Below the pieces are notes generated by a model, which ran no database searches, was not told the origin of the DNA, and saw only the letters and a program-made list of their open reading frames with translations. This document shows positions 2,861 to 11,604 of a stretch of 20,456 bases of DNA, in pieces. The position numbers and the translations under genes were made by a program. The number at the start of each line of letters is the position of its first letter. The stretch's first letter is position 1. The DNA is from a virus: the IMG/VR virus record IMGVR_UViG_3300025138_000494, positions 1 through 20,456 of that record. One strand, written 5' to 3'.

Positions 2861-2944
2861 CTATCCTTTCTTATTAGTTTTTCTAAGACCACGATACTGG
2901 CCTCCTTTTTTAGACTTAGCAGCCCTGCGCTGCGCTCTATTCAT
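2861..2944 (-). CDS. very small basic protein, MNRAQRRA type
   Basis: A 27-residue frame from ATG at 2944 to TAG. It begins MNRAQRRAAKSKK and ends KTNKKG, with a strong positive charge and no acidic residue. Its N-terminus matches that of the adjacent upstream frame (MNRAERRASKSNK), so the two are tandem paralogues. The start overlaps the upstream stop (ATGA) and its tail supplies the GAAAGGA ribosome-binding site for the next gene. Very short proteins with this opening occur in actinobacterial phages. A nucleic-acid or ribosome-binding role is plausible from charge alone. Confidence 0.6.
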   Translation of the reverse strand: MNRAQRRAAKSKKGGQYRGLRKTNKKG

Positions 2945-3042
2945 TTGTCTTGGCTTCCTAAATTATTTTTTCTACGCCAAGTATTTTTAAGATGTAGTTT
3001 ACTTTTATTAGATTTAGAAGCTCTACGCTCTGCTCTATTCAT
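2941..3042 (-). CDS. very small basic protein, MNRAERRA type
   Basis: A 33-residue frame starting at the ATG that overlaps the previous TAA (TAATG at 3040-3044) and ending in the TGA that overlaps the next ATG. It begins MNRAERRASKSNK and continues with mostly Lys, Arg and Asn (TWRRKNN). It is the paralogue of the frame at 2861-2944. The paired N-termini, the exact coupling on both sides and the lack of any other frame here make chance unlikely. Function unknown. Confidence 0.6.
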   Translation of the reverse strand: MNRAERRASKSNKSKLHLKNTWRRKNNLGSQDK

Positions 3043-3638
3043 TAGAACGGTGACAAGTCTTCACCAGCATTGTTTGGTGCTGGTTTGACTTCTCCATCTA
3101 AGTTCCATTCTGCAGGTACATCTGAGTTATCTACCCACCATGACTTACGCCATTTACCACTGTGTCCACCACAGGTAACAGGGTCATTAGTACTACATAC
3201 AAAGTCTGGACTTTTGTCTGACTTCTTATTGTTTCTATTGTCATATACCATTTGTTGACAGAAAGGACACTTAAGGTCATCTCTGTATTTATTTTGTTGT
3301 TCCATTTTACTAACTATGCCTCCCAACATATCTCCAGCAGGCTGCACTTTATCAGTTGGTTCTTGTACTTCTAAACCTACAGCGTTTAACTTTTCTTCTA
3401 TTGACATTTTATCAAAAGAATCTTGAGTTACTACTGTTGGCATATCTACTAGCTTTTCTATGTAAGCAAAATACAAATCAAGTTGGTCATCTGTCCATCT
3501 TGTTTTATCTGTATCAAACTTCTTTAACTGTGCGTATTGATTTGCAGAACCTAAAATTTTATGTAATGTTTCTTGTGATTCTACGTTCGTACAAATACCT
3601 TGCACTGTTTCAGCTATAAATTGTACATCCTGACTCAT
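3042..3638 (-). CDS. zinc-ribbon protein with SSB-like C-terminal tip, partner of the annealing protein
   Basis: A 198-residue protein. Residues 1-120 are mostly helical and acidic. Residues 124-156 form a zinc ribbon: CPFC (124-127) and then C148 and C156, followed by a basic aromatic patch (KWRKSWW, 162-168). It ends EDLSPF; an acidic tail finishing in Pro-Phe is the signature of single-strand binding proteins, whose tip docks many repair enzymes. The gene overlaps the Rad52-like gene by 4 nt (ATGA), so the two are co-translated. I infer a DNA-recombination partner, possibly a single-strand binding or loading factor. I do not see a classical OB fold, so it is not called SSB outright. Confidence 0.6.
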   Translation of the reverse strand: MSQDVQFIAETVQGICTNVESQETLHKILGSANQYAQLKKFDTDKTRWTDDQLDLYFAYIEKLVDMPTVVTQDSFDKMSIEEKLNAVGLEVQEPTDKVQPAGDMLGGIVSKMEQQNKYRDDLKCPFCQQMVYDNRNNKKSDKSPDFVCSTNDPVTCGGHSGKWRKSWWVDNSDVPAEWNLDGEVKPAPNNAGEDLSPF

Positions 3639-4207
3639 AACTCAGTACCTAAGATACTGTCCATGATGGCTGCTTGTGCTGCTTTATCCTCAGCGGATAT
3701 TTTATTTTCTTTCTTACGCATATCAACCTTAGTTACTTCTACCTTGGCATCTTTCTCAGCATCTTCAGCTGTATAAGGCTTAGGTATGTAACTGTTATCA
3801 GTCGTATTAGCTGCAGAATGTTCTTCTTCTGTCTGTTTACTACCAGACCATAGCTCTACACCTAACCCGAACCTCATACATGCACGCTTAAATGCATCAG
3901 ATTCTGCGTCTTTAAGGTTGTTACCGTCATTAAACTTAGCATTGCCAAGCTTAAAGGTATCAACATCACCGAAACCATCATAACTACCCATACCTTCTAT
4001 GGTTATAGTACCTTTAGCTCCGACTATTCGTTTCTCTCCGTTGTATGTACCATATACAGGTTCACACGACCAAGAGTATATTACCTCACTATCACGTAGT
4101 CTTTCTACATAATTAGCGTGTGGTACGTAGTCTCCAAATTTCCCAGCAGGTGCTTTTTTTACAAGTTCCTGTGGAAATGGGGACAACAGTTTGTTGTTAT
4201 TAGTCAT
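3635..4207 (-). CDS. Rad52/Rad22-like single-strand annealing protein
   Basis: A 190-residue protein. It opens with FPQELVKKAPAGKFGDYVPH (11-30) and a HANYVERLRD helix. Then come a beta-rich section (YSWSCEPVYG, GTITIEGMGSYDGFGDV) and the conserved LKDAESDAFKRACMRFGLGVELW (98-120), which is the hallmark helix of the Rad52/22 fold. The remaining 70 residues are charged and likely flexible. These proteins anneal complementary single strands during phage recombination and replication. The start has AGAAAGGAAT upstream, with a 17-bp stem-loop (4224-4265) between that site and the preceding stop. It is coupled to the zinc-ribbon gene downstream. Confidence 0.85.
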   Translation of the reverse strand: MTNNNKLLSPFPQELVKKAPAGKFGDYVPHANYVERLRDSEVIYSWSCEPVYGTYNGEKRIVGAKGTITIEGMGSYDGFGDVDTFKLGNAKFNDGNNLKDAESDAFKRACMRFGLGVELWSGSKQTEEEHSAANTTDNSYIPKPYTAEDAEKDAKVEVTKVDMRKKENKISAEDKAAQAAIMDSILGTEL

Positions 4208-4223
4208 AACATTCCTTTCTTTG

Positions 4224-4265
4224 TTTATTTATTATGCCGTTCCGAAAAAACGGCTAATAAATAAA
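4224..4265 (-). promoter_or_regulatory. stem-loop directly 5' of the annealing-protein ribosome-binding site
   Basis: TTTATTTATTA-t-GCCGTT (4224-4241) pairs with AACGGC-TAATAAATAAA (4249-4265): 17 base pairs, one bulged T, 7-nt loop. It fills the space between the stop of the 4267-4422 gene and the AGAAAGGAAT ribosome-binding site. No U-run follows on the minus strand, so it is not a standard intrinsic terminator. Confidence 0.7.
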
Positions 4266-4266
4266 G

Positions 4267-4422
4267 TTATTTATTTACTATATCTGTAAGTCTAGTTACT
4301 CCATGTTCTATTGGAATAAATTTAATACCATTATCTGTATTAACTACAAAATATGGTTGTGAACCATACCCTGCATACTCAATAGAGACTCTCTTAACAG
4401 ACTCATTTACTGTATTTGACAT
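4267..4422 (-). CDS. small hypothetical protein, 51 aa
   Basis: A frame from ATG at 4422 to TAA, which abuts the stem-loop at 4224-4265. The sequence alternates polar and hydrophobic residues (SIEYAGYGSQPYFVVNTDNGIKFIPIE), suggesting a small beta-rich protein, with no Cys. It begins 17 nt after the metallophosphoesterase stop, and I see no strong ribosome-binding site there. It fills an otherwise empty space in the operon on the same strand. Function unknown. Confidence 0.5.
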   Translation of the reverse strand: MSNTVNESVKRVSIEYAGYGSQPYFVVNTDNGIKFIPIEHGVTRLTDIVNK

Positions 4423-4438
4423 ACTATATGTAGTATAC

Positions 4439-5500
4439 CTATACTTTATCCAGTTTTACAAGGTATTCAGCAGTTACACCATGTCCTGGTTTACAGAATA
4501 ATAGCCATTGACATGGTCTACCCATGCTTGCTAGCTGCTCCATAGCATAACTATTGTAGCTTTCTGTACTACCATTTACCCATAAACGTACATCATTTAC
4601 GTACATTGTTGTAGGTGTATGGAAGTGTCCAGCTATTGCATAGTCAAAGTCTGGCATTAAATCTCTTGATGCCAATGCTTTCCAACCTAATAGTTTCTTT
4701 CCGAAACCATACCAAGGAAAACCGCTATGTCCTCGTACATTATCTCCGTGCCATACAAAGAATCTACAGTCTTTACCAAGGTCTGCTATACCAAACCAAT
4801 GGTCTTCTGTTGTACTGTCTGGTACATGAAAAGAAATTCTTTTATCTTTATCATATATCATTGACATTATCTTTCCTAGCATACGGTCACTGTTGCTGTC
4901 TGGGTGATAATCTTTTCTGGCTCTACCGCCAAGGCTTCCGTGATTACCTATTACCCAAGTAACTTCTACTTCTTTAAAGTTAGCTAACAGTACATCAAAG
5001 AACTGTGTCAATATTCTAGGGCCATCTATTGTTACCTGACTATAAAGACTTGCGTCTATCAAGTGTGATTGTCCTGGGAATATAAGCTCTCCTTCTACAA
5101 TGTCACCTGCAACTAGCACTGCACACTTATTTACGGGGTGTGCATTTCTTTGTAGATTTGCTAGTTCCACTATTTTATGAGCATATGCAACAACTCTTTT
5201 CTCTGCTATTGCTGTGTCATAATCTGGTGTTGTTTTAGCTAACTGTATATCTGATAGTATTGCTACTGCAATTTCTTCGTTCTTGTTAGCTTTACTTAAT
5301 GTAGGTTTAGGTACATTAGGTTTAGCCCATGTAGATACATTCATTCGTACAGCATCATACATAGCTTCAATTAAATCAGCTTTTTTATTTTTAGCTCTGT
5401 CTAATTGTTTAAGTAACTTAAGATTATCTGCTTTCAGTTCTTGAATCTTAGATGATTCAGCTTCGGCAATTAATTTATCTACTTCTTTATTTTTACTCAT
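4439..5500 (-). CDS. calcineurin-like metallophosphoesterase
   Basis: A 353-residue protein. Residues 8-50 are likely a coiled coil. The catalytic domain follows with the metal-binding motifs in order: SDIQ (83-86), AGDIVEGE (131-138), VIGNHG (183-188), WHGDN (250-254) and AGHFH (290-294). The family hydrolyses phosphate esters or nucleic-acid ends using two metals. The first motif normally has Asp-x-His; here it is Asp-x-Gln, so one metal ligand may be altered. Phage members are often found beside DNA-processing genes, and here it sits between a small HTH protein (ATGA overlap) and the annealing protein, which fits a role in DNA ends or regulation. Substrate unknown. Confidence 0.85.
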   Translation of the reverse strand: MSKNKEVDKLIAEAESSKIQELKADNLKLLKQLDRAKNKKADLIEAMYDAVRMNVSTWAKPNVPKPTLSKANKNEEIAVAILSDIQLAKTTPDYDTAIAEKRVVAYAHKIVELANLQRNAHPVNKCAVLVAGDIVEGELIFPGQSHLIDASLYSQVTIDGPRILTQFFDVLLANFKEVEVTWVIGNHGSLGGRARKDYHPDSNSDRMLGKIMSMIYDKDKRISFHVPDSTTEDHWFGIADLGKDCRFFVWHGDNVRGHSGFPWYGFGKKLLGWKALASRDLMPDFDYAIAGHFHTPTTMYVNDVRLWVNGSTESYNSYAMEQLASMGRPCQWLLFCKPGHGVTAEYLVKLDKV

Positions 5501-5736
5501 GCGCTTGTCACTTTCATAAAATGATTACGTATAGCTGATTCTGATATTTTCACACCAAATTCTTCACGCAACAATCTATGTACAACATATGGTTTTATGT
5601 TATGTCCAGATTCTAAACGTTCTATACATCCTTGCCAAAATGGCATTGCTTCATCTGTAATTCTGTCAAAGACAGAGTTATTCTTACCTTGTTCTGCTTC
5701 TTGCAGCAGTGCATTTATATCTTTCATACTTGTCAT
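5497..5736 (-). CDS. small helix-turn-helix-like protein upstream of the phosphoesterase
   Basis: A 79-residue protein. The C-terminal half (YVVHRLLREEFGVKISESAIRNHFMKV) reads as a helix-turn-helix: a first helix ending at EEF, a turn at GVKIS and a recognition helix ESAIRNHF. The N-terminus is acidic and helical. The ATG at 5736 lacks a good ribosome-binding site, unlike most leftward genes; the gene follows a 280-nt structured intergenic region that may control it. It is coupled to the phosphoesterase by ATGA. Small phage proteins of this kind are common before phosphoesterases, but the partner relation is inferred. Confidence 0.65.
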   Translation of the reverse strand: MTSMKDINALLQEAEQGKNNSVFDRITDEAMPFWQGCIERLESGHNIKPYVVHRLLREEFGVKISESAIRNHFMKVTSA

Positions 5737-6016
5737 TATATGTTCATTTATTAAAAATACAAGGATTTAATCTATTTATGCAGGATAGGCTAAACGGAAA
5801 TACGAGTGTCCACTAGGACACGAAGTATTGAGGTAAAGCCTGAGAGCATAAATAATTAGAGTAGTGTTCACTATAGGTCACTGTTGACATGATGAATAAA
5901 ATACCTTGTTGCAAGTTCTCTTTGCACTCTATTCTACTCTAATTATATACTGTAATGTTTAAGCAAAGGAAAGGAACCTTGCCACGCTTTGCAGCGTTAC
6001 ATTACATACTACTCTA
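5737..6016. other. 280-nt gene-free region with three consecutive structured elements
   Basis: No protein frame of useful length is seen on either strand. Element 1 (5773-5854): TATTTATGC/GCATAAATA outer stem, AGGCT/AGCCT, AATAC/GTATT, and a GTGTCC-acta-GGACAC hairpin. Element 2 (5854-5944): AATTAGAGTAG/CTACTCTAATT enclosing GTCA-ctgt-TGAC and TGCAA/TTGCA hairpins. Element 3 (5951-6006): TGTAATGT/ACATTACA enclosing GCAAAG/CTTTGC. On the minus strand these would be the 3' end of the VWA-gene message and the 5' leader of the HTH/phosphoesterase genes. Confidence 0.6.
5942..5947 (-). promoter_or_regulatory. possible -10 box on the minus strand
   Basis: Minus-strand TATAAT inside ATATAATTAG, a 10-mer that also occurs on the plus strand at the proposed late promoter (11564-11569). 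No convincing -35 box is present at 16-18 bp. If used, it would start a message whose leader carries elements 2 and 1 before the HTH gene at 5736. Confidence 0.3.
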
Positions 6017-7426
6017 TCACATGTTCAATTTAAGTCCATGTTCCTTTACTTCTTCTATATTTTTAAGATTTATAATGTTATATTTCTTAATAGACTTACT
6101 TACATCAGACATTAGATTAATACCAGATATATCACCTGTAGCACCAAACACATGCATGTCTGATACCCAGATTCTTTTAGCTGATTGTGTACCTAGCCAT
6201 TCTAAAGCTGGGCCATCTACAACATTGCCATAACCAGAATGTCTATTTAAGTAATCATCTGCTACTCGTTTACCATTCTTAGCAATAATACGTAATGTAC
6301 CTGTAGTACCACGTCCGTTATACATAGCAATAGTAACTGCAGGTAACAGTTGCATAATTTCTAAAATATCTTCACCACAAAATTGCATTGAACCTGAAGC
6401 ATCAATAAGTATTGTGCCACCAAGTGTTGTTATTTTCTGTTTGAATATCTTTCTATCTATACAATATCTATTAATATATTTTGGATTATAACCAAAGTCT
6501 GCAGGTCTATAGTTTCTGCCACCTTTAATTCGTCCTTGTAAATTAATAGTTAATGGGGGTTTTTCTATAGTCATAGCACCCCACATACCTATACCAGTAG
6601 TACTTCTATATAACATTTTTGCTATATCTTCTTTAGTACGTTGTTCTAAAGAACCACCACCTAACTCATTAGATTCTTCACCTCCACCTTCTTCCATACC
6701 AGGTGCGGTATGTTTTGGTGTAGGTTTATATACTTCTTCAGGCTCAGGTTTATCTCTGAACATATCAAGTAACAAACTTAATGGTTCTGCATATTTTTGT
6801 ACTTTACGATAACTAATAGTTCTACCATAACTATGACTAGTAATGCTATTAAAGTATTGTTGTATAATACTTTGTGCATATCTTATTTGTTCTTTACGAT
6901 AATCAGTGACAGTAATGTCATCTTGAATCATATGAAAACAGTCTCTCATAACTAAGTACTCGTCATTTACCATGGATGCATTGTATTTATTTCCTTCATC
7001 AACTACATTCCATTTACTAGCTAGACCCATAAGTATTATTTCTGCAATACCTGATTCATAAACTAGTTTCATAGTTTCTTGTTTTATTTTATCTAAACAT
7101 TTTGTTGGCTCAGATAAAGACAAGTTGTTTTCATGAAGTAAATGATTAATTCTTACTTCTTCTAGTACTTCTACTGCTTCTGCACGTACACCTGGCTTTA
7201 ACTTACCCATAGTCTTTGGACTCCACTTGGCATGACCAAGCTCATGTCTACGTATCATACGACTATGATTAATACCACATTCCGAACACTCTCTATCAAG
7301 TGGAACTGTCATTTGTCTGTTGAGATTATCTGTAGAACCTGCAGGACTGTTGTTAACAGTACCTACAACTTCCCAGTCTTCACCAGTAACAATTTCTGGA
7401 TATGGATAAGCTTTGCTATGAAGCAT
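6017..7426 (-). CDS. VWA-domain protein with HExxH metallopeptidase-like N-terminal domain (MoxR partner)
   Basis: A 469-residue protein. The N-terminal region has a CSEC pair (C47, C50) and a zinc-peptidase-type RRHELGHAKW (H61, E62, H65), followed by the acidic helix AEAVEVLEEVRINHLL (83-98), which could supply the third ligand. A low-complexity acidic linker (about 226-262, PEPEEVY...GMEEGGGEE) leads to a C-terminal von Willebrand A domain with the MIDAS motif DASGS (342-346) and a later VSDMHV (421-426). This order matches predicted metallopeptidase plus VWA proteins (DUF2201/VMAP-like). It overlaps the AAA+ gene by 11 nt, the usual pairing of MoxR ATPases with VWA proteins. Such pairs remodel or load metals into client complexes; the phage client is unknown. 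Confidence 0.8.
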   Translation of the reverse strand: MLHSKAYPYPEIVTGEDWEVVGTVNNSPAGSTDNLNRQMTVPLDRECSECGINHSRMIRRHELGHAKWSPKTMGKLKPGVRAEAVEVLEEVRINHLLHENNLSLSEPTKCLDKIKQETMKLVYESGIAEIILMGLASKWNVVDEGNKYNASMVNDEYLVMRDCFHMIQDDITVTDYRKEQIRYAQSIIQQYFNSITSHSYGRTISYRKVQKYAEPLSLLLDMFRDKPEPEEVYKPTPKHTAPGMEEGGGEESNELGGGSLEQRTKEDIAKMLYRSTTGIGMWGAMTIEKPPLTINLQGRIKGGRNYRPADFGYNPKYINRYCIDRKIFKQKITTLGGTILIDASGSMQFCGEDILEIMQLLPAVTIAMYNGRGTTGTLRIIAKNGKRVADDYLNRHSGYGNVVDGPALEWLGTQSAKRIWVSDMHVFGATGDISGINLMSDVSKSIKKYNIINLKNIEEVKEHGLKLNM

Positions 7427-8147
7427 TAGCTAGTGTTACTGCATCTATGAGTTCTTCTGCTTTGTCTGCAAATACTAACTGTGCAGCATCTGATTCTGTA
7501 AAACCAGATTCATTTTGCAATCTAAAGAATTCTGCCCAAGTACGTATAGAAATACGTTCCTCAGCATCTTCTATCAATGAAGTGTCATTAATAACTCCAT
7601 GCCACTTATCATCGAATGCTTCCATTGCTTTAGGGTGTATTGTGTTAACATGTATTTTGACAGGAAACCTATCTTTTAATGCTAATGGCAACGACTCAGG
7701 TGGACTGTTAGTTGTAGCTACGACTTGAAAGCCTTCAGCTGGTCTAACTGTCTCCTTGTTGTCATTGTTTAGTGTCAACATTGCTATTTCTTGGTCATCC
7801 AATATAGCATGTAGGAATGTCATCGCATCTGGTGATGCATGGTCTATCTCATTAATTATAAGACGACCACCATTCTTCCATGATTGTATTGCAATACCAT
7901 CATGCCATTCAAAAGTACCTGTGCTAGATGGTTTGTAAAAACCTTCTAAGTTTGCACTAGCAGTATCTTCTGTCATAGTTATTTGATAGATGTTATCTAT
8001 CTCTTTTCCTGCTGATTTACTATACGCTCTTGGCGTATTAGTTTTAACAGCACTATATGTTTTACCTGTACCAGGTGGGCCATAAAGTAATACTCTACGG
8101 CTATTGCCCAATACAGATTCTACTAATTCCCAGCAATCTTTTGCCAT
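7416..8147 (-). CDS. MoxR/CobS-type AAA+ ATPase
   Basis: A 243-residue single AAA+ module: Walker A GPPGTGKT (23-30), Walker B RLIINEID (95-102), sensor-1 ATTN (144-147) and LKDRF (157-161) carrying a likely arginine finger. The MEGF/LEGFY-like segment (66-71) and HAILDD (113-118) also fit the MoxR/CobS branch. It is shorter than many MoxR proteins at the C-terminus. The start ATG at 8147 has GAAAGGAG upstream. Overlap with the VWA gene indicates a two-subunit complex. In marine phages, related genes are often labelled CobS; there is no direct evidence here for cobalamin synthesis, and I prefer a chaperone-like role. Confidence 0.88.
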   Translation of the reverse strand: MAKDCWELVESVLGNSRRVLLYGPPGTGKTYSAVKTNTPRAYSKSAGKEIDNIYQITMTEDTASANLEGFYKPSSTGTFEWHDGIAIQSWKNGGRLIINEIDHASPDAMTFLHAILDDQEIAMLTLNNDNKETVRPAEGFQVVATTNSPPESLPLALKDRFPVKIHVNTIHPKAMEAFDDKWHGVINDTSLIEDAEERISIRTWAEFFRLQNESGFTESDAAQLVFADKAEELIDAVTLANAS

Positions 8148-8171
8148 GATTAGCTCCTTTCGTATCTGTAT

Positions 8172-8639
8172 TTATTTCTTAGTATCTCTAAGAAAATCTT
8201 CTATATCATCACTCATGTCATTTGTATGCTTAATAACAGCATTTTCTGTGAGTGTATTAAGCTCATCTTCGTCTTCGATTAAACTAGCTTGTATAGCTGT
8301 TGGTTCTATTAACATCCAATCTTGAAACAAACCTTTATCATCTAGAAATTCAGCAAATTTAAGTACTGTTTCTCTATCAAATTCATCTTCATCAGGTAAC
8401 ATACCTGGATATCTAGTCATTGTTTCTGCTTTAATAACAGTATCAACTTTGATAGCTCTAGCAATTGCTTGTTCTAATGAACTAGCTTCTACTTCGTATC
8501 GATTAGCTATACCATTTTCTATATCTAGTTCTTTATCATCATCATCTACGTTATCAAATATTTGATATCTAAAATATGATATCTGTACTTGATATTTTTT
8601 TAACGGCTTGTTTTGAACCTCAATTAAGTGTCCATGCAT
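8172..8639 (-). CDS. acidic hypothetical protein, 155 aa
   Basis: A highly acidic soluble protein (runs such as DNVDDDDKELD, EDEDEL and DMSDDIEDFL) with a beta-like N-terminal part (KKYQVQISYFRYQIF). The ATG at 8639 (MHGHLIEV) is chosen because GAAAGGAAT stands 5-6 nt upstream. An in-frame ATG at 8687 would translate a perfect stem-loop arm and has no equal site nearby. The gene precedes the AAA+/VWA pair by 24 nt, so it may belong to the same functional unit, for example as an adaptor or DNA mimic; this is a guess from charge and position. Confidence 0.65.
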   Translation of the reverse strand: MHGHLIEVQNKPLKKYQVQISYFRYQIFDNVDDDDKELDIENGIANRYEVEASSLEQAIARAIKVDTVIKAETMTRYPGMLPDEDEFDRETVLKFAEFLDDKGLFQDWMLIEPTAIQASLIEDEDELNTLTENAVIKHTNDMSDDIEDFLRDTKK

Positions 8640-8687
8640 AATATTCCTTTCGTTGCTCTGCCACAGAGAGTAACGGAAGGAATGCAT
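8634..8687 (-). promoter_or_regulatory. stem-loop covering the ribosome-binding site of the 8172-8639 gene
   Basis: ATTCCTT-t-CGTT-g-CTCT (8643-8659) pairs with AGAG-t-AACG-g-AAGGAAT (8667-8683): 15 pairs with two symmetric mismatches and a 7-nt loop. The minus-strand AAAGGAAT ribosome-binding site is within the stem. ATGCAT occurs at both outer edges (8634-8639 and 8682-8687), so the start codon can also pair. Confidence 0.7.
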
Positions 8688-8689
8688 AT

Positions 8690-8861
8690 AACACTCCTCC
8701 CATACTCAATGCTATCTTACACAGGGCATTATGTATTTTATAGATAGCTTGTAACAGACAAAGAAAATTGTTGTAAAATTTATCTGCTACAAGCTATGTA
8801 CATTTAATAACCTAGACGCTGGCTATAAAGGGGAACTAAATAGCCAGCTTGGACACATGGT
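8690..8861. other. gene-free region with competing stems
   Basis: No useful reading frame. ATAGCTTGTA-a-CAGA (8744-8758) pairs with TCTG-c-TACAAGCTAT (8783-8797). The same 8742-8748 AGATAGC can instead pair with GCTATCT at 8711-8717. At 8809-8868, AACCTAGAC/GTCTAGGTT continues without a gap into GCTGGCTAT/ATAGCCAGC, giving an 18-bp stem with a 13-nt loop and an 11-nt one-sided bulge (8849-8859). The last stem overlaps the stop codon of the zinc-ribbon gene. Confidence 0.6.
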
Positions 8862-9014
8862 CTAGGTTTTATAAAGTTGTTCCATCCGGGCAGGAATGAC
8901 AACTTTAATATTACATTTTGCACAACAAACACCAATAGATACAGGTTCTGCATTATTGCTGTATTGATTGTGTATAACTTTATTGCATATCCAACATGTA
9001 AATGACTCAGGCAT
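8862..9014 (-). CDS. small zinc-ribbon-like protein, 50 aa
   Basis: A frame beginning MPESF with CWIC (C7, C10) and CCAKC (C30, C31, C34) twenty residues apart, a typical zinc-ribbon arrangement, then a basic/hydrophobic end (KVVIPARM). The ATG at 9014 overlaps the previous gene's stop; an ATG two codons upstream (9020) is also possible. The TAG stop lies in the right arm of the stem at 8809-8868. The Cys pattern makes it credible despite its size. Role unknown. Confidence 0.6.
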   Translation of the reverse strand: MPESFTCWICNKVIHNQYSNNAEPVSIGVCCAKCNIKVVIPARMEQLYKT

Positions 9015-9240
9015 AATCATCTGGTCCAATTACATCTAACATAGACTTACAATATATGCTTGGTCTATGTGATGTAAATTCTATATCACCATCATTAGGT
9101 ATAAGACGAACCATTGCATCTATTTGTGCAACAGCGTCATCTACATCTACGTCATATGCAAAATGAAAATCAACTGTTAAAACATTATCTTGTTGTTTAT
9201 AATCTTGATTTTCAAATACGTACACATCATTTTTAGTCAT
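9007..9240 (-). CDS. small acidic hypothetical protein, 77 aa
   Basis: Strongly acidic (DFHFAYDVDVDDAVAQIDAMV, PNDGDIEFT) with likely beta strands flanking one helix, a possible ferredoxin-like fragment. Start ATG at 9240 overlaps the stop of the coiled-coil gene (ATGA). Its end overlaps the start of the zinc-ribbon gene. No motif is recognised. Confidence 0.65.
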   Translation of the reverse strand: MTKNDVYVFENQDYKQQDNVLTVDFHFAYDVDVDDAVAQIDAMVRLIPNDGDIEFTSHRPSIYCKSMLDVIGPDDYA

Positions 9241-9407
9241 GATATGTCGCTATCGTATACATTGTTTATAGTTGTATCTAAATCCATAAGCTTACTTACA
9301 ATAACTTTATCAAGTTCACTCATGTTTTGCATTGTTCTTCTAATGCTACTTAGTATTGAAACTATTTGTTCTAATTTAATTTCTAACTCGTCTAATTTAC
9401 TAGTCAT
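9237..9407 (-). CDS. small coiled-coil protein, 56 aa
   Basis: A 56-residue frame with heptad-like hydrophobic spacing (KLDELEIKLEQIVSILSSIRRTM, then ELDKVIVSKLMDLDTTINNV), predicted to be a single long helix or helical hairpin. Start ATG at 9407 overlaps the previous TAA (TAATG), with GAAAGGAA just upstream; the end overlaps the next start (ATGA). It may oligomerise or bind a neighbour. No family recognised. Confidence 0.6.
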   Translation of the reverse strand: MTSKLDELEIKLEQIVSILSSIRRTMQNMSELDKVIVSKLMDLDTTINNVYDSDIS

Positions 9408-9610
9408 TATATTCCTTTCTTATCAACAGCTTTGCTTATTTGATAACTTACTGCTTCATGAAGCATTGCACAATGATTGCCTATATGAGTTTTAACGCGC
9501 TCATTGTTACTCCAAGCTTGTAAGTCATTAAGTGTCCACTGAATAACTTGTTTTAGTTCTTCTACATCAAGTGTATCTAACTTATCATCTAATGATAATT
9601 TAATATTCAT
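9407..9610 (-). CDS. small helical hypothetical protein, 67 aa
   Basis: Mostly helical and acidic at the N-terminus (DDKLDTLDVEELKQVIQWTLNDLQAW), with one Cys and a HCAMLHEAV segment. Start ATG at 9610 follows GAAAGGAAATT, and a perfect 15-bp stem-loop sits directly upstream of that site. Its last codons (KKGI) double as the ribosome-binding site of the next gene. Function unknown. Confidence 0.65.
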   Translation of the reverse strand: MNIKLSLDDKLDTLDVEELKQVIQWTLNDLQAWSNNERVKTHIGNHCAMLHEAVSYQISKAVDKKGI

Positions 9611-9623
9611 AATTTCCTTTCAC

Positions 9624-9667
9624 TTTATATATATTACGTTCTCCCATAGAAGAACGTAATATATAAA
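9624..9667 (-). promoter_or_regulatory. perfect 15-bp stem-loop 5' of a ribosome-binding site
   Basis: TATATATTACGTTCT (9628-9642) pairs with AGAACGTAATATATA (9651-9665), with an 8-nt loop. It lies between the stop of the 9676-10008 gene and the GAAAGGAAATT site of the 9407-9610 gene. No U-run follows on the minus strand. Confidence 0.7.
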
Positions 9668-9675
9668 TATTAACA

Positions 9676-10008
9676 CTAATCTATAGTGTTATATTCTGCA
9701 TCATCCAATTCATCATTGTATGAATCTGCATCAACAGTACTAGCCATAGCTAATTGTTTTTCTACATCCTCTTTACCTTTAAGAGATGTAGGACTTTCAT
9801 CATGCATTTCCCACAGTTTAGACTGTGCATCTGCAATGATACGTAGTTGCTCTGCAACATCGTCATCAGTTTTATCAAGGTGTAAAAAGTAGGGTCTACT
9901 TTTACCTTGAGTTGCTGAATAAGCATGAGTGACAGCCATTTGACTCCACTCAGTCAGTTGTGCGCCTGTTTGCGCACAGATTACCTCGTAAGGTACGTTA
10001 CTTGCCAT
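9676..10008 (-). CDS. hypothetical protein with an AQxKLWxMH motif, 110 aa
   Basis: Soluble protein with a central helix LRIIADAQSKLWEMHDESPTSL (55-76) and an acidic tail (DADSYNDELDDAEYNTID). The central helix resembles that of the 55-residue protein encoded just upstream (QIKQAQKKLWNMHNQSPSVL), so the two are probably paralogues; here the motif is embedded in a longer protein with an N-terminal VICAQTGAQLTEW segment. Its GAAAGGATAT ribosome-binding site is inside the outer stem of the 111-nt hairpin at 10014-10124. No domain name can be given. Confidence 0.7.
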   Translation of the reverse strand: MASNVPYEVICAQTGAQLTEWSQMAVTHAYSATQGKSRPYFLHLDKTDDDVAEQLRIIADAQSKLWEMHDESPTSLKGKEDVEKQLAMASTVDADSYNDELDDAEYNTID

Positions 10009-10013
10009 AATAT

Positions 10014-10124
10014 ATATCCTTTCTATTATGTATCATCTATGTCTTTCATAGATAAATTTTTCTTTCACACCACGCTCTGAAAGAAAATATTTAGCTAAAG
10101 ACATAGTTATACGAGAAAGGATAT
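10014..10124 (-). promoter_or_regulatory. 111-nt compound hairpin that buries a ribosome-binding site, with a competing fold
   Basis: Three nested perfect stems: ATATCCTTTCT/AGAAAGGATAT (10014-10024 with 10114-10124), CTATGTCTTT/AAAGACATAG (10037-10046 with 10097-10106) and TTTTCTTTCA/TGAAAGAAAA (10058-10067 with 10078-10087). ATCTATG at 10035-10041 can alternatively pair with CATAGAT at 10047-10053, breaking the middle stem. On the minus strand the ribosome-binding site of the 9676-10008 gene is in the outer stem. A 32-codon frame from 10131 crosses the element but looks incidental. Confidence 0.75.
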
Positions 10125-10291
10125 TATTCATGTTTCTTTAATTGTGCTAATACTGATGGACTTTGATTGTGCATATTCCATAATTTCTTTTGCGCTTGTT
10201 TTATTTGATTAACAAGCTTTACATGTTCTGGATTAGACATATCAATTTCTATATTTAAGTTATGTATAGAATCTCCTATAGGTATTTTCAT
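10124..10291 (-). CDS. small hypothetical protein, 55 aa, paralogue of its downstream neighbour
   Basis: A frame from ATG at 10291 (TAATG overlap with the previous gene, GAAAGGAT upstream) to TAA. The C-terminal helix LVNQIKQAQKKLWNMHNQSPSVLAQL matches the centre of the 9676-10008 product: shared AQ-KLW-MH-SP in the same order. Its stop lies at the edge of the 10014-10124 hairpin. This suggests a small duplicated gene family in which one copy gained extra domains. No function known. Confidence 0.65.
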   Translation of the reverse strand: MKIPIGDSIHNLNIEIDMSNPEHVKLVNQIKQAQKKLWNMHNQSPSVLAQLKKHE

Positions 10292-10500
10292 TATTTATCC
10301 TTTCTATATTTACCAATATTTATATCATTAATTAGAAATAATTCACTATAATTACTATATAAATCTTTCAAATTTAAATAAAATGGACATAACCAATAAT
10401 CTACTAACATTATTACATATTCTATTTTATTTAAAGGCGGCAAATCTTCGATTTGGCCTATGCCATTTCTATAATGCAAGCTATTTATATATTTTCTCAT
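10291..10500 (-). CDS. small hypothetical protein, 69 aa, with a hydrophobic centre
   Basis: Tyr/Asn/Leu-rich with a hydrophobic middle (IEYVIMLVDYWLCPFYL, about 26-42) that might be one membrane-associated helix, and a basic end (GKYRKDK). Start ATG at 10500 is preceded by GAAAGGAAT and by the stem-loop at 10514-10547. A small membrane protein is possible, but Asp in the middle of the segment makes a buried soluble helix equally likely. Confidence 0.55.
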   Translation of the reverse strand: MRKYINSLHYRNGIGQIEDLPPLNKIEYVIMLVDYWLCPFYLNLKDLYSNYSELFLINDINIGKYRKDK

Positions 10501-10513
10501 ATATTCCTTTCAT

Positions 10514-10547
10514 GAAGGATAGTAAGGGATTAACCCTCACTACCTTC
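10514..10547 (-). promoter_or_regulatory. stem-loop with the upstream stop codon in its loop
   Basis: GAAGG-a-TAGTAAGGG (10514-10528) pairs with CCCTCACTACCTTC (10534-10547): 14 pairs on the minus-strand RNA counting one G-U, one bulge, 5-nt loop. The loop holds the TAA of the 10530-10835 gene, and GAAAGGAAT for the next gene follows at once. Confidence 0.65.
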
Positions 10548-10835
10548 AAATAATGATAATTGCTTAATATTATCAACTTGTTTAATTAATTTAGGCAACT
10601 CTTTTAATTTACGTGCAATATAGGTTTTAGATTCCTTATGCAGTTCAATTAAGTTCCGCTTGCCTCCAGCTGTCGGTTGTGCAACACAGTCGCCGTGTAG
10701 GTACGACTTCCATGTTACCCAGCCCTTCTGTGGTCCGAAGTAGCTTTTTATAGGGTGTCTTTCGTCTGGAAATACTTCTTTATGACATATGCCACAATCG
10801 ATAGTATTTACCCATTTAGTATATTTAATATCCAT
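10530..10835 (-). CDS. zinc-finger-like protein with a sliding-clamp-binding motif
   Basis: A 101-residue protein. CGIC (C14, C17) and HGDC (H48, C50) can form a zinc site around a Trp-rich segment (GPQKGWVTWKSYLHGDC). Residues 65-90 form a basic helix. Near the end is QLSLF (92-96), which fits the bacterial beta-clamp consensus QL(S/D)LF, followed by EGSEG. It is the first gene of the leftward operon, where phages often place host take-over genes. I infer that it docks on the host sliding clamp. Its ribosome-binding site GAAAGGAC is buried in the 84-nt hairpin at 10835-10918. Confidence 0.65.
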   Translation of the reverse strand: MDIKYTKWVNTIDCGICHKEVFPDERHPIKSYFGPQKGWVTWKSYLHGDCVAQPTAGGKRNLIELHKESKTYIARKLKELPKLIKQVDNIKQLSLFEGSEG

Positions 10836-10918
10836 ATTTTCTTGTCCTTTCTATGAATTTTCTGTCTTACATACCTGACAAGACGGAAAATACTTAAATA
10901 GAAAGGACTTAGAAAATA
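10835..10918 (-). promoter_or_regulatory. long hairpin burying the ribosome-binding site of the first leftward gene
   Basis: TATTTTC/GAAAATA (10835-10841 with 10912-10918), GTCCTTTCTAT/ATAGAAAGGAC (10844-10854 with 10898-10908), ATTTTC/GAAAAT (10857-10862 with 10886-10891) and GTCTT/AAGAC (10864-10868 with 10880-10884) stack in one hairpin: 29 pairs, 11-nt loop, small internal loops. The minus-strand site AGAAAGGAC is fully paired and the hairpin reaches the first base of the start codon. Confidence 0.75.
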
Positions 10919-11016
10919 GGATACGAGAATATCTATGGGTAATACTAGATTGGCATTGACATACAAGTATGACAGACTAAGACGCACTCAAAAGCCTCGG
11001 CGACAAAGGTCTGTAA

Positions 11017-11074
11017 CATTAAGTTATCCTCACTGTACTGTTAGCACAATACAGTAGAGGCAAGTAACTTAATG
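11017..11074. repeat. nested inverted repeat
   Basis: CATTAAGTTA (11017-11026) pairs with TAACTTAATG (11065-11074). Inside, CCTC-ACTGTA (11028-11036) pairs with TACAGT-a-GAGG (11050-11060). About 20 pairs in 58 nt. GTTATCC (11023-11029) can alternatively pair with GGATAAC at 11101-11107. Confidence 0.7.
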
Positions 11075-11116
11075 AACAGTTGGAATGTAACTCATTGTAC
11101 GGATAACACTGTATTT

Positions 11117-11194
11117 ATATATAGTATCCATATGTATGCATAGTCATATCAATACACTACATATGGTATTAAATCAATACTGGATACTATATAT
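11117..11194. repeat. 13-bp perfect inverted repeat with inner stem
   Basis: ATATATAGTATCC (11117-11129) pairs with GGATACTATATAT (11182-11194). ATATGTA (11130-11136) pairs with TACATAT (11158-11164) directly inside. The outer arms contain two of the four ATATATAGTAT motif copies. Confidence 0.7.
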
Positions 11195-11293
11195 GGTAGG
11201 TCACTTTACCGTAAGGTAAAGACACTCAGTACATACATACAATATATAGTATGACTACTGTAGAACTTTAGTACTGAGTGTTGTTTGACCACC
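11195..11293 (+). ncRNA. putative three-way-junction RNA element
   Basis: GGT-a-GGTCA (11195-11203) pairs with TGACC-ACC (11286-11293). The first branch CTTTACC-gtaa-GGTAAAG (11204-11221) and second branch ACACTCAGTAC/GTACTGAGTGT (11222-11232 with 11271-11281) follow with no unpaired base between the stems; only TGTT (11282-11285) is free. Inside the second branch CATAC/GTATG (11236-11240 with 11249-11253) pairs. Strand is inferred from the plus-strand terminator downstream. Confidence 0.5.
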
Positions 11294-11361
11294 CAGTGTT
11301 AACCTTGATGCTCTATATATAGTATGTAAGGTTAAAAATATATGCTGGTAATTTCTGTAAT

Positions 11362-11385
11362 ACTGTAGGTGGCTACAGTCTTTTT
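11362..11385 (+). terminator. intrinsic terminator on the plus strand
   Basis: ACTGTAG (11362-11368), loop GTGG, CTACAGT (11373-11379), then CTTTTT. A 7-bp stem with a tetraloop and U-run. There is no U-run on the minus strand, so it acts rightwards. No protein gene ends before it, so it implies a short non-coding rightward transcript or a block before terL that must be overcome. Confidence 0.6.
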
Positions 11386-11540
11386 AGGCACTAGCGGGCA
11401 TTAGTAATGTGTGCCTAATCAAACGCTTTCGTAAGTCCTTGGGTACTGCCTTTGTCTTTCTAGTGTACTGTCTCGCCAGTCAGCAGCTTTCTACATCCCG
11501 ATTGCAACTTCACCTGTAACAAATTACTTGTGTTTGATGT

Positions 11541-11569
11541 TTGTATTTGAGAGTATAGTACCATATAAT
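11541..11569 (+). promoter_or_regulatory. candidate late promoter for terL
   Basis: TTGTAT (11541-11546) and TATAAT (11564-11569) are separated by 17 bp. The -10 box is perfect and the -35 box weak. It lies between the arms of an 8-bp inverted repeat, GATGTTTG (11536-11543) and CAAACATC (11580-11587), which might be an operator or leader stem. The site is 36 nt before the terL ATG. Confidence 0.45.
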
Positions 11570-11604
11570 TAGCACTACGCAAACATCTACAGAAAGTTAG
11601 TTAA

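Follow-up and report, generated by a model that had tools for sequence, protein, structure and literature searches.

Most of what is known about how early phage genes are controlled after transcription comes from a few model phages. In the early mRNA of phage T7, RNase III sites are hairpins that lie between early cistrons. In phage T4, the translational operator of gene 43 is a hairpin upstream of an early-gene start and is bound by a phage protein, and the T4 RegA and RegB proteins target many early genes at their translation initiation regions (PMC3014915). In Cluster K mycobacteriophages, start-associated sequences (SAS) and extended SAS (ESAS) place inverted repeats just upstream of starts that are more than about 50 bp from the neighbouring gene (PMC3203893, PMC12699233). 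Here, we describe hairpins that accompany the Shine-Dalgarno (SD) sequences of early genes in the virus record IMGVR_UViG_3300025138_000494, the whole of which (20,456 bases, hereafter the window) holds a leftward early operon and rightward genes, and in the many relatives of the window in IMG/VR. Their structure, selection, strand and operon placement are established by computation: they belong to the sense-strand mRNA of the early leftward operon and lie mostly between a stop codon and the next SD. No description of such early-operon hairpins was found in the open-licence literature, most subscription papers being outside the scope of that search.

Each described system shares part of this arrangement. 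Like the T4 gene 43 operator, the hairpins stand upstream of or at an early-gene SD and, in the main set of loci, tend to keep loop letters; however, a single gene is concerned in T4, whereas many leaders per phage are concerned here and the loop letters vary between phages, and the T4 binder is a phage protein, whereas the binder proposed below is a putative one (PMC3014915). RegA and RegB resemble the present case in addressing the initiation regions of many early genes, but RegA sites are described as having no clear structure and RegB as cutting GGAG/U, whereas the hairpin is what recurs here (PMC3014915). The ESAS are likewise inverted repeats before spaced genes in phages of an actinobacterium (PMC3203893, PMC12699233). 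Their arms share a consensus and their authors see little support for mRNA hairpins; the arms described here lack a consensus and keep their pairing (PMC3203893). The SAS 13-mer GGGATAGGAGCCC is absent from the window, in which one match with three mismatches was found and 0.98 were expected.

The original prediction placed a strong inverted repeat at the ribosome-binding sites of six leftward genes, which are named here by their start positions. When the leaders of 25 leftward starts (2942 and 3041 left out) were folded from -80 to +10 against 200 dinucleotide shuffles each, z fell below -3 only at these six (4207, -4.1; 8639, -3.1; 9610, -6.4; 10008, -4.7; 10500, -4.3; 10835, -5.5), the next being 8147 (-2.6) and 5500 (-2.2). 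Excess stability over shuffled controls is present at all six leaders, with z from -3.1 to -6.4 and all beyond the other 19, and the predicted repeats are borne out. The total of ungapped Watson-Crick hairpins in the whole window is just modestly high because 15 were found against 9, 5, 12, 7 and 6 in five shuffles. Nine of the 15 fall within 4224-11166, eight of them outside genes and the ninth (8872-8907) overlapping the end of the open reading frame (ORF) 8862-9014.

The prediction also divided the six sites into three inside a stem (8639, 10008 and 10835) and three beside one. This split is correct, except that 8639 is a contest between two helices and not a simple lock. Folding from -130 to +12 gives the SD an unpaired probability of 0.00 at both 10008 and 10835, 0.42 at 8639, 0.88 at 4207, 0.98 at 9610 and 0.63 at 10500. 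All leader features named from here on lie on the minus strand. The locked leader of gene 10530-10835, the first gene of the leftward operon, spans 10829..10923; its SD lies in an outer stem formed by the inverted repeat 10829-10854/10898-10923, within which an inner hairpin occupies 10857-10891. Nested hairpins precede gene 9676-10008 (10014..10124), and their outer arms (10014-10029/10109-10124) cover the SD. The remaining hairpins are found at 10513..10548, between gene 10530-10835 and the SD of gene 10291-10500; at 9628..9665, ending just 5' of the SD of gene 9407-9610; and at 4224..4265, between gene 4267-4422 and the SD of the annealing-protein gene 3635-4207. The upstream arm of the first of these overlaps the end of gene 10530-10835, and its coordinates, as well as those of the 8639-leader segments given below, were read directly from the sequence.

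Gene calls and hairpin counts in the relatives were obtained with custom scripts (a simple ORF caller; ungapped Watson-Crick stems scoring at least 8), and representative loci share less than 15% of their 21-mers. Among 44 representatives, a hairpin lies in 91 of the 129 early gaps of 41-120 nucleotides (nt) (46/63 and 45/66, against 5.5 and 6.4 in shuffles) and in 45 of the 69 early gaps of 121-400 nt (11.6 shuffled); late gaps of the same two length classes give 0/13 and 4/18 (2.0 shuffled for the latter), and early gaps of 21-40 nt give 0/26. A set of 33 representatives yields 76/112 early tandem gaps of 41-120 nt (9.2 shuffled) and 34/56 of 121-400 nt (10.9 shuffled), with 0/14 and 3/13 (1.5 shuffled for the latter) in the corresponding late-strand gaps. 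Early-gap hairpins extend to 18 further loci (23/57 against 3.9 shuffled) and to more distant ones (L361, 4/7 against 0.4; L362, 6/9 against 1.4; L364 and L365, 0/1 each), and occupy two of five gaps of 41-200 nt in Streptomyces phage Dagobah, a sample too small for this phage to serve as a laboratory model of the group. Hairpin density is 2.62 per kb outside genes and 0.15 inside genes in a locus set that includes L081, a piece of the window that the other counts leave out. Placement is narrow: 46 of 69 hairpins start 0-9 nt past the upstream stop codon, and in 42 the distance from the hairpin end to the start codon is 13-20 nt, which places them next to the SD. The stems have a median of 14 ungapped pairs (range, 9-27) and contain more G-U than A-C oppositions (20 versus 9; 32 versus 12 in a looser set), an excess that fits RNA of the transcribed strand, as that model predicts.

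Two other identities were rejected. Palindromes acting at the DNA level are disfavoured by the G-U excess and by the concentration in the early operon, and terminators are disfavoured because an A-rich stretch and an SD come after most of the hairpins. Visual inspection shows six or more T behind about nine of 123 listed hairpins, and these possible terminators are still within the counts. The internal mismatches of the stems are lopsided in that the 5' arm often has a pyrimidine facing C, A or U (CA 11, AC 1), which looks as if one kind were selected for.

Arms change while pairing stays, both among relatives and in the window's own lineage, and compensatory change, for which the original prediction suggested a test, is observed. 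Among non-redundant relatives, a hairpin is present at 4207 in 24/24, every one ending before the SD; at 9610 in 25/30, 24 of them adjacent to the SD; at 8639 in 21/30, with the SD within the stem in 11; and at 10835 in 4/5. Own arms form standard pairs at 0.98, 0.98 and 0.97 of positions at 4207, 9610 and 8639, against 0.55, 0.45 and 0.47 for re-dealt arms, the own-arm figures being partly high by construction since the hairpins were selected for pairing; three to four pair types occur at every stem position in this comparison. At 9610 and 4207, own arms are 0.95-0.98 paired and cross-phage arms 0.31-0.44. In an alignment of five sequences from the window's lineage, 92.5% of cells are paired (0/500 shuffles as high), five of 16 pairs have changed on both sides with pairing kept (2/500 shuffles) and the covariation score is reached by 0/500 shuffles; further pair types are not in excess (421/500 shuffles).

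Folding energies of the relatives point the same way at four starts, with a median z of -4.1 at 9610 (-0.2 inside genes), -3.1 at 8639 (-0.6), -3.4 at 10008 (-1.6) and -5.3 at 10835 (n = 5; -2.3), and are not distinct at 8147 (-1.8 versus -2.4). Shuffled sequences also fold when arms are rich in purines or in pyrimidines, and inverted-repeat counts were therefore used. At 10008 and 10835, the SD is largely paired in the relatives folded, despite altered arms, with an unpaired probability of 0.06 in L002 and 0.17 in L003 and L007 at 10008, and of 0.00 in L002 and L003, 0.19 in L007 and 0.02 in L014 at 10835. The 10500 leader has an orthologue only in L001. A single arm motif was rejected: RNAalifold finds no pairs in a 16-sequence alignment across lineages because the arms do not align, and within the window's lineage they do align.

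Is it placement alone, and not sequence, that recurs, as the original prediction held? This is true of the arms, which are unrelated between genes, but not of the loops, which tend to be alike within a phage. Different genes of a single phage can be preceded by like loops on unlike stems (as in L111, L139, L043, L118 and L074), and the within-phage loop likeness of 0.317, versus 0.175, is reached by 0/2000 permutations (79 pairs, 86 hairpins). Upper stems are not alike within phages (p 0.16). A folding-based loop comparison with first genes included gives p 0.0002 (312 pairs). The loop pattern C[CU]NN[CU]G, which was chosen after the hairpins had been viewed, occurs in 36/76 loops (10.0 shuffled, largest 16) and in 18/134 hairpins inside genes. 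In the leaders of first genes, a set independent of the choice of pattern, it occurs in 8/22 against 1.5 shuffled (0/2000); these 22 include at least three loops that are present twice. A narrower pattern, [CU]UUA[CU]G, is found in four of 14 new tandem leaders (p 0.001). Loop likeness is clear in the main set and only partial in the hold-outs, for which loci were taken at less than 20% shared 21-mers (6 loci) and then, with the limit loosened, at less than 30% (18 loci), and in which the within-phage tests kept hairpins resembling earlier ones. The combination of remodelled stems with loops that tend to resemble one another within a phage is a hint that a putative factor controls the early messages jointly.

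We tentatively propose, at somewhat short of an even chance, that the hairpins are operators of the early operon whose loops are read by a lineage-specific factor. This factor, most likely a phage-encoded RNA-binding protein, would recognize the apical loop and thereby exert joint control over several early cistrons, through their translation or their stability. An adjacent hairpin that is unbound would leave the SD open and the gene translated, and once bound it would form a complex next to the SD that keeps ribosomes from loading. Some leaders would be closed or switchable, given that the SD of 10835 and 10008 is locked in the predicted ground state and that the 8639 leader has two competing helices, of which the SD-free one is predicted to be stabler. 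It is binding, repression and timing by the hairpins that we infer in this proposal.

Several observations weigh against such operators. Lower stems are slightly alike within phages (p 0.02), the hold-outs for loop likeness are mixed (p 0.028 for 18 pairs and p 0.077 for 112 pairs), and C[CU]NN[CU]G failed on the 14 new tandem leaders (3/14, p 0.27) and occurs in 1/5 leaders of the stricter first hold-out. With the ungapped detector, a hairpin is rare among relatives at 8147 (4/32), 9240 (3/15) and 10008 (3/11), and the 4207 leaders of relatives are no stabler than gene interiors (median z -1.7 versus -1.6). Furthermore, domain searches give no informative match for the early proteins of the window and thus no candidate binding factor, and the 8639 protein has no fold match (AlphaFold pLDDT 68, a low confidence; no PDB match at E 0.001).

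The main rival to loop-read operators, likewise raised by the original prediction, is a set of RNase processing sites, a possible but doubtful alternative in which an RNase III-like double-strand nuclease would cleave the hairpins and thereby split the early message into cistrons whose ends are defined and protected. The hairpins lie between early cistrons as the T7 sites do, and their position between stop codon and SD in the placement counts above, the free choice of stem letters and the confinement to the early operon all suit processing. However, an RNase III processing site has a stem of about two helical turns, for which the median of 14 pairs (range, 9-27) seems short, and stems that hold the SD would be cut through it. 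Processing also leaves the within-phage likeness of the loops unexplained, which is not part of the T7 model.

The hairpins might instead be passive insulators that do no more than take up upstream sequence, keeping the SD single-stranded and allowing each neighbouring gene to be translated on its own with no trans factor. Consistent with such insulation, the SD next to an adjacent hairpin is unpaired with a probability of 0.67 in native leaders versus 0.53 in shuffled ones (54/69, p 1.6e-7). However, leaders without a hairpin shift likewise, by a smaller amount (0.65 versus 0.56; 36/55, p 0.012), and SD openness therefore needs no hairpin. Insulation also predicts loops that are free to vary, contrary to their likeness within a phage, and does not cover the locked leaders. 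We consider it unlikely.

Hiding of the ribosome-binding site, which the original prediction had put forward, fits only part of the leaders: the SD of 10008 and of 10835 is locked, that of 8639 is contested and those of 4207, 9610 and 10500 are mostly open. Occlusion is found at 10008 and 10835, also in relatives, and in the leaders of first genes, in which a stem-loop of at least nine pairs is present in 22/22 and contains the SD in 8/22. Hiding is not supported as a general rule, as the SD beside an adjacent hairpin is more open than in a shuffled leader; in six in-stem leaders, the SD is unpaired with a probability of 0.31 versus 0.45 shuffled (p 0.22). The leaders of T4 genes e, soc, 49 and I-TevI hold the SD inside a helix as 10008 and 10835 do, but most hairpins here, unlike those leaders, stop short of it (PMC3014915).

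The leader of gene 8172-8639 is predicted to adopt two states. Segment 2 (8668..8684) can pair with segment 1 (8692..8707), which leaves the SD free, or with segment 3 (8643..8658), which holds the SD and covers it in this pairing. An SD-covering helix is present in 16/30 of the 8639 leaders (p at most 0.01, SD overlap of at least 4 nt; ungapped, 100 shuffles), and 12 of these 16 also have the competing helix (p at most 0.05), that of the window itself reaching p 0.06 in the ungapped test. In gapped folding, for which nine leaders were picked by eye and one was not found, the SD-free state is stabler in 8/8 leaders evaluated, with L072 nearly tied; in the window, it has -40.9 kcal/mol versus -32.7 kcal/mol for the SD-covered state. 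Mutually exclusive helices, one of which covers the SD, are a feature of riboswitches and attenuators, and the 8639 leader is predicted to have them. A search of Rfam with the window up to E 1 gave just one chance-level match, elsewhere in the window, and 19 relatives had no match at the gathering score. A further hairpin of this leader (8818..8848) carries a CCCCTT loop. Viewed by eye, a hairpin loop close to the switch contains GCCC, often as TGCCCTG, in many 8639 leaders, in which an upstream hairpin has CCCCTT in its loop.

Timing as in T4 gene e, also raised by the original prediction, by which binding sites hidden in long early transcripts would be freed in shorter later ones, is very improbable: the SD locked at 10008, at 10835 and in 8/22 first-gene leaders agrees with it, but the SD is open in most leaders, a transcript containing segment 1 at 8639 favours the SD-free fold (8/8), the reverse of gene e, and promoter-like sites, which bear on this model since it requires a promoter at the hairpin, are not in excess in 3600-11600 (42 versus 38.9, sd 6.4, expected on both strands, in a scan that knows only the sigma-70 consensus, from which phage promoters may differ).

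Upstream of the 8639 switch lies a variant copy of an RNA cassette (8741..8800, minus strand; arms 8741-8762/8779-8800), the arm sequences of which are kept and which has G-U pairs on the transcribed strand. The cassette has the layout GTAGG-TAGCTTGTAGCACA-insert-TGTGTTACAAGCTA-TCTATA, with inserts of about 34-92 nt, and its exact pattern is found in at least 120 stretches in IMG/VR and is widespread in marine phage contigs. The loci analysed contain 167 distinct exact-arm elements, to which the variant of the window does not belong, with 92 kinds of insert. Of these elements, 128 have the same strand as both neighbours and one has the opposite strand, the rest standing at mixed or cut contexts. 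Among inserts seen more than once, 33/37 recur in unlike upstream flanks, as if inserts were swapped between phages. The 5' arm of the cassette can pair with a segment further upstream in 32/44 elements (score at least 7; without a shuffled control), and the upstream pairing of the window's cassette, seen in its twin L001, scores 6. Inserts alone fold weakly (z below -2 in 8/60), and 19 of 114 further loci showed no protein relative of the window. The cassette is sometimes present as two copies in a row. A role of the inserts as antisense guides was rejected, with exact matches of at least 15 nt outside the elements for 28/92 inserts versus 22/92 shuffled; matches of at least 18 nt number 11 versus 1 shuffled and may be cut or decayed copies.

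The leftward genes of the window include those for a SET-domain protein, a calcineurin-like exonuclease and an AAA ATPase, in addition to the annealing protein, which matches a PHROG single-strand annealing family (E 8e-12) and, below the cut-off, Pfam Rad52. The rightward genes include a terminase gene and a long ORF that extends past the window end, and one rightward protein is taken for the portal protein from its position, without a family match. No near relative of the window is found among named phages, in which the protein relatives are distant (about 26% for the best-listed terminases, in Streptomyces phages; 42% for the nuclease, in Streptomyces phage Dagobah). Candidate host groups come from relatives of the terminase, which occur in two contigs of one Actinomycetota metagenome-assembled genome (MAG; three loci) and in single contigs of MAGs named Gammaproteobacteria, Rhodobacteraceae and Flavobacteriaceae. 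The 280-nt gap 5737-6016, between genes 5497-5736 and 6017-7426, contains an inverted repeat of 16 nt (5849-5864/5934-5949). Several long inverted repeats with TATATAGTAT-like letters in common lie upstream of the leftward operon in 11117-11330, which is possibly a bidirectional control region. Two adjacent short ORFs at about 2862-3043 (minus strand), read by eye and starting MNRAQRRAAKSKK and MNRAERRASKSNK, are apparently duplicated small basic proteins.

In a large group of uncultured marine phages, pairing is kept at many gapped early-gene starts, and the loops tend to be phage-specific. The gene-by-gene question of what binds a leader becomes one experiment per phage, namely to find the loop binder, and the relatives form a natural collection in which stem, loop and spacing vary around a single type of start site. 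In a wider reading, which is conceivable but on the doubtful side, a phage-encoded, loop-reading RNA-binding protein or RNase would control much of the early operon via several hairpins per phage, with stems free to change and loops co-evolving with the factor by lineage, and a two-state leader would operate next to interchangeable cassettes. If this is true, such phages would run the timing of their early genes largely at the RNA level.

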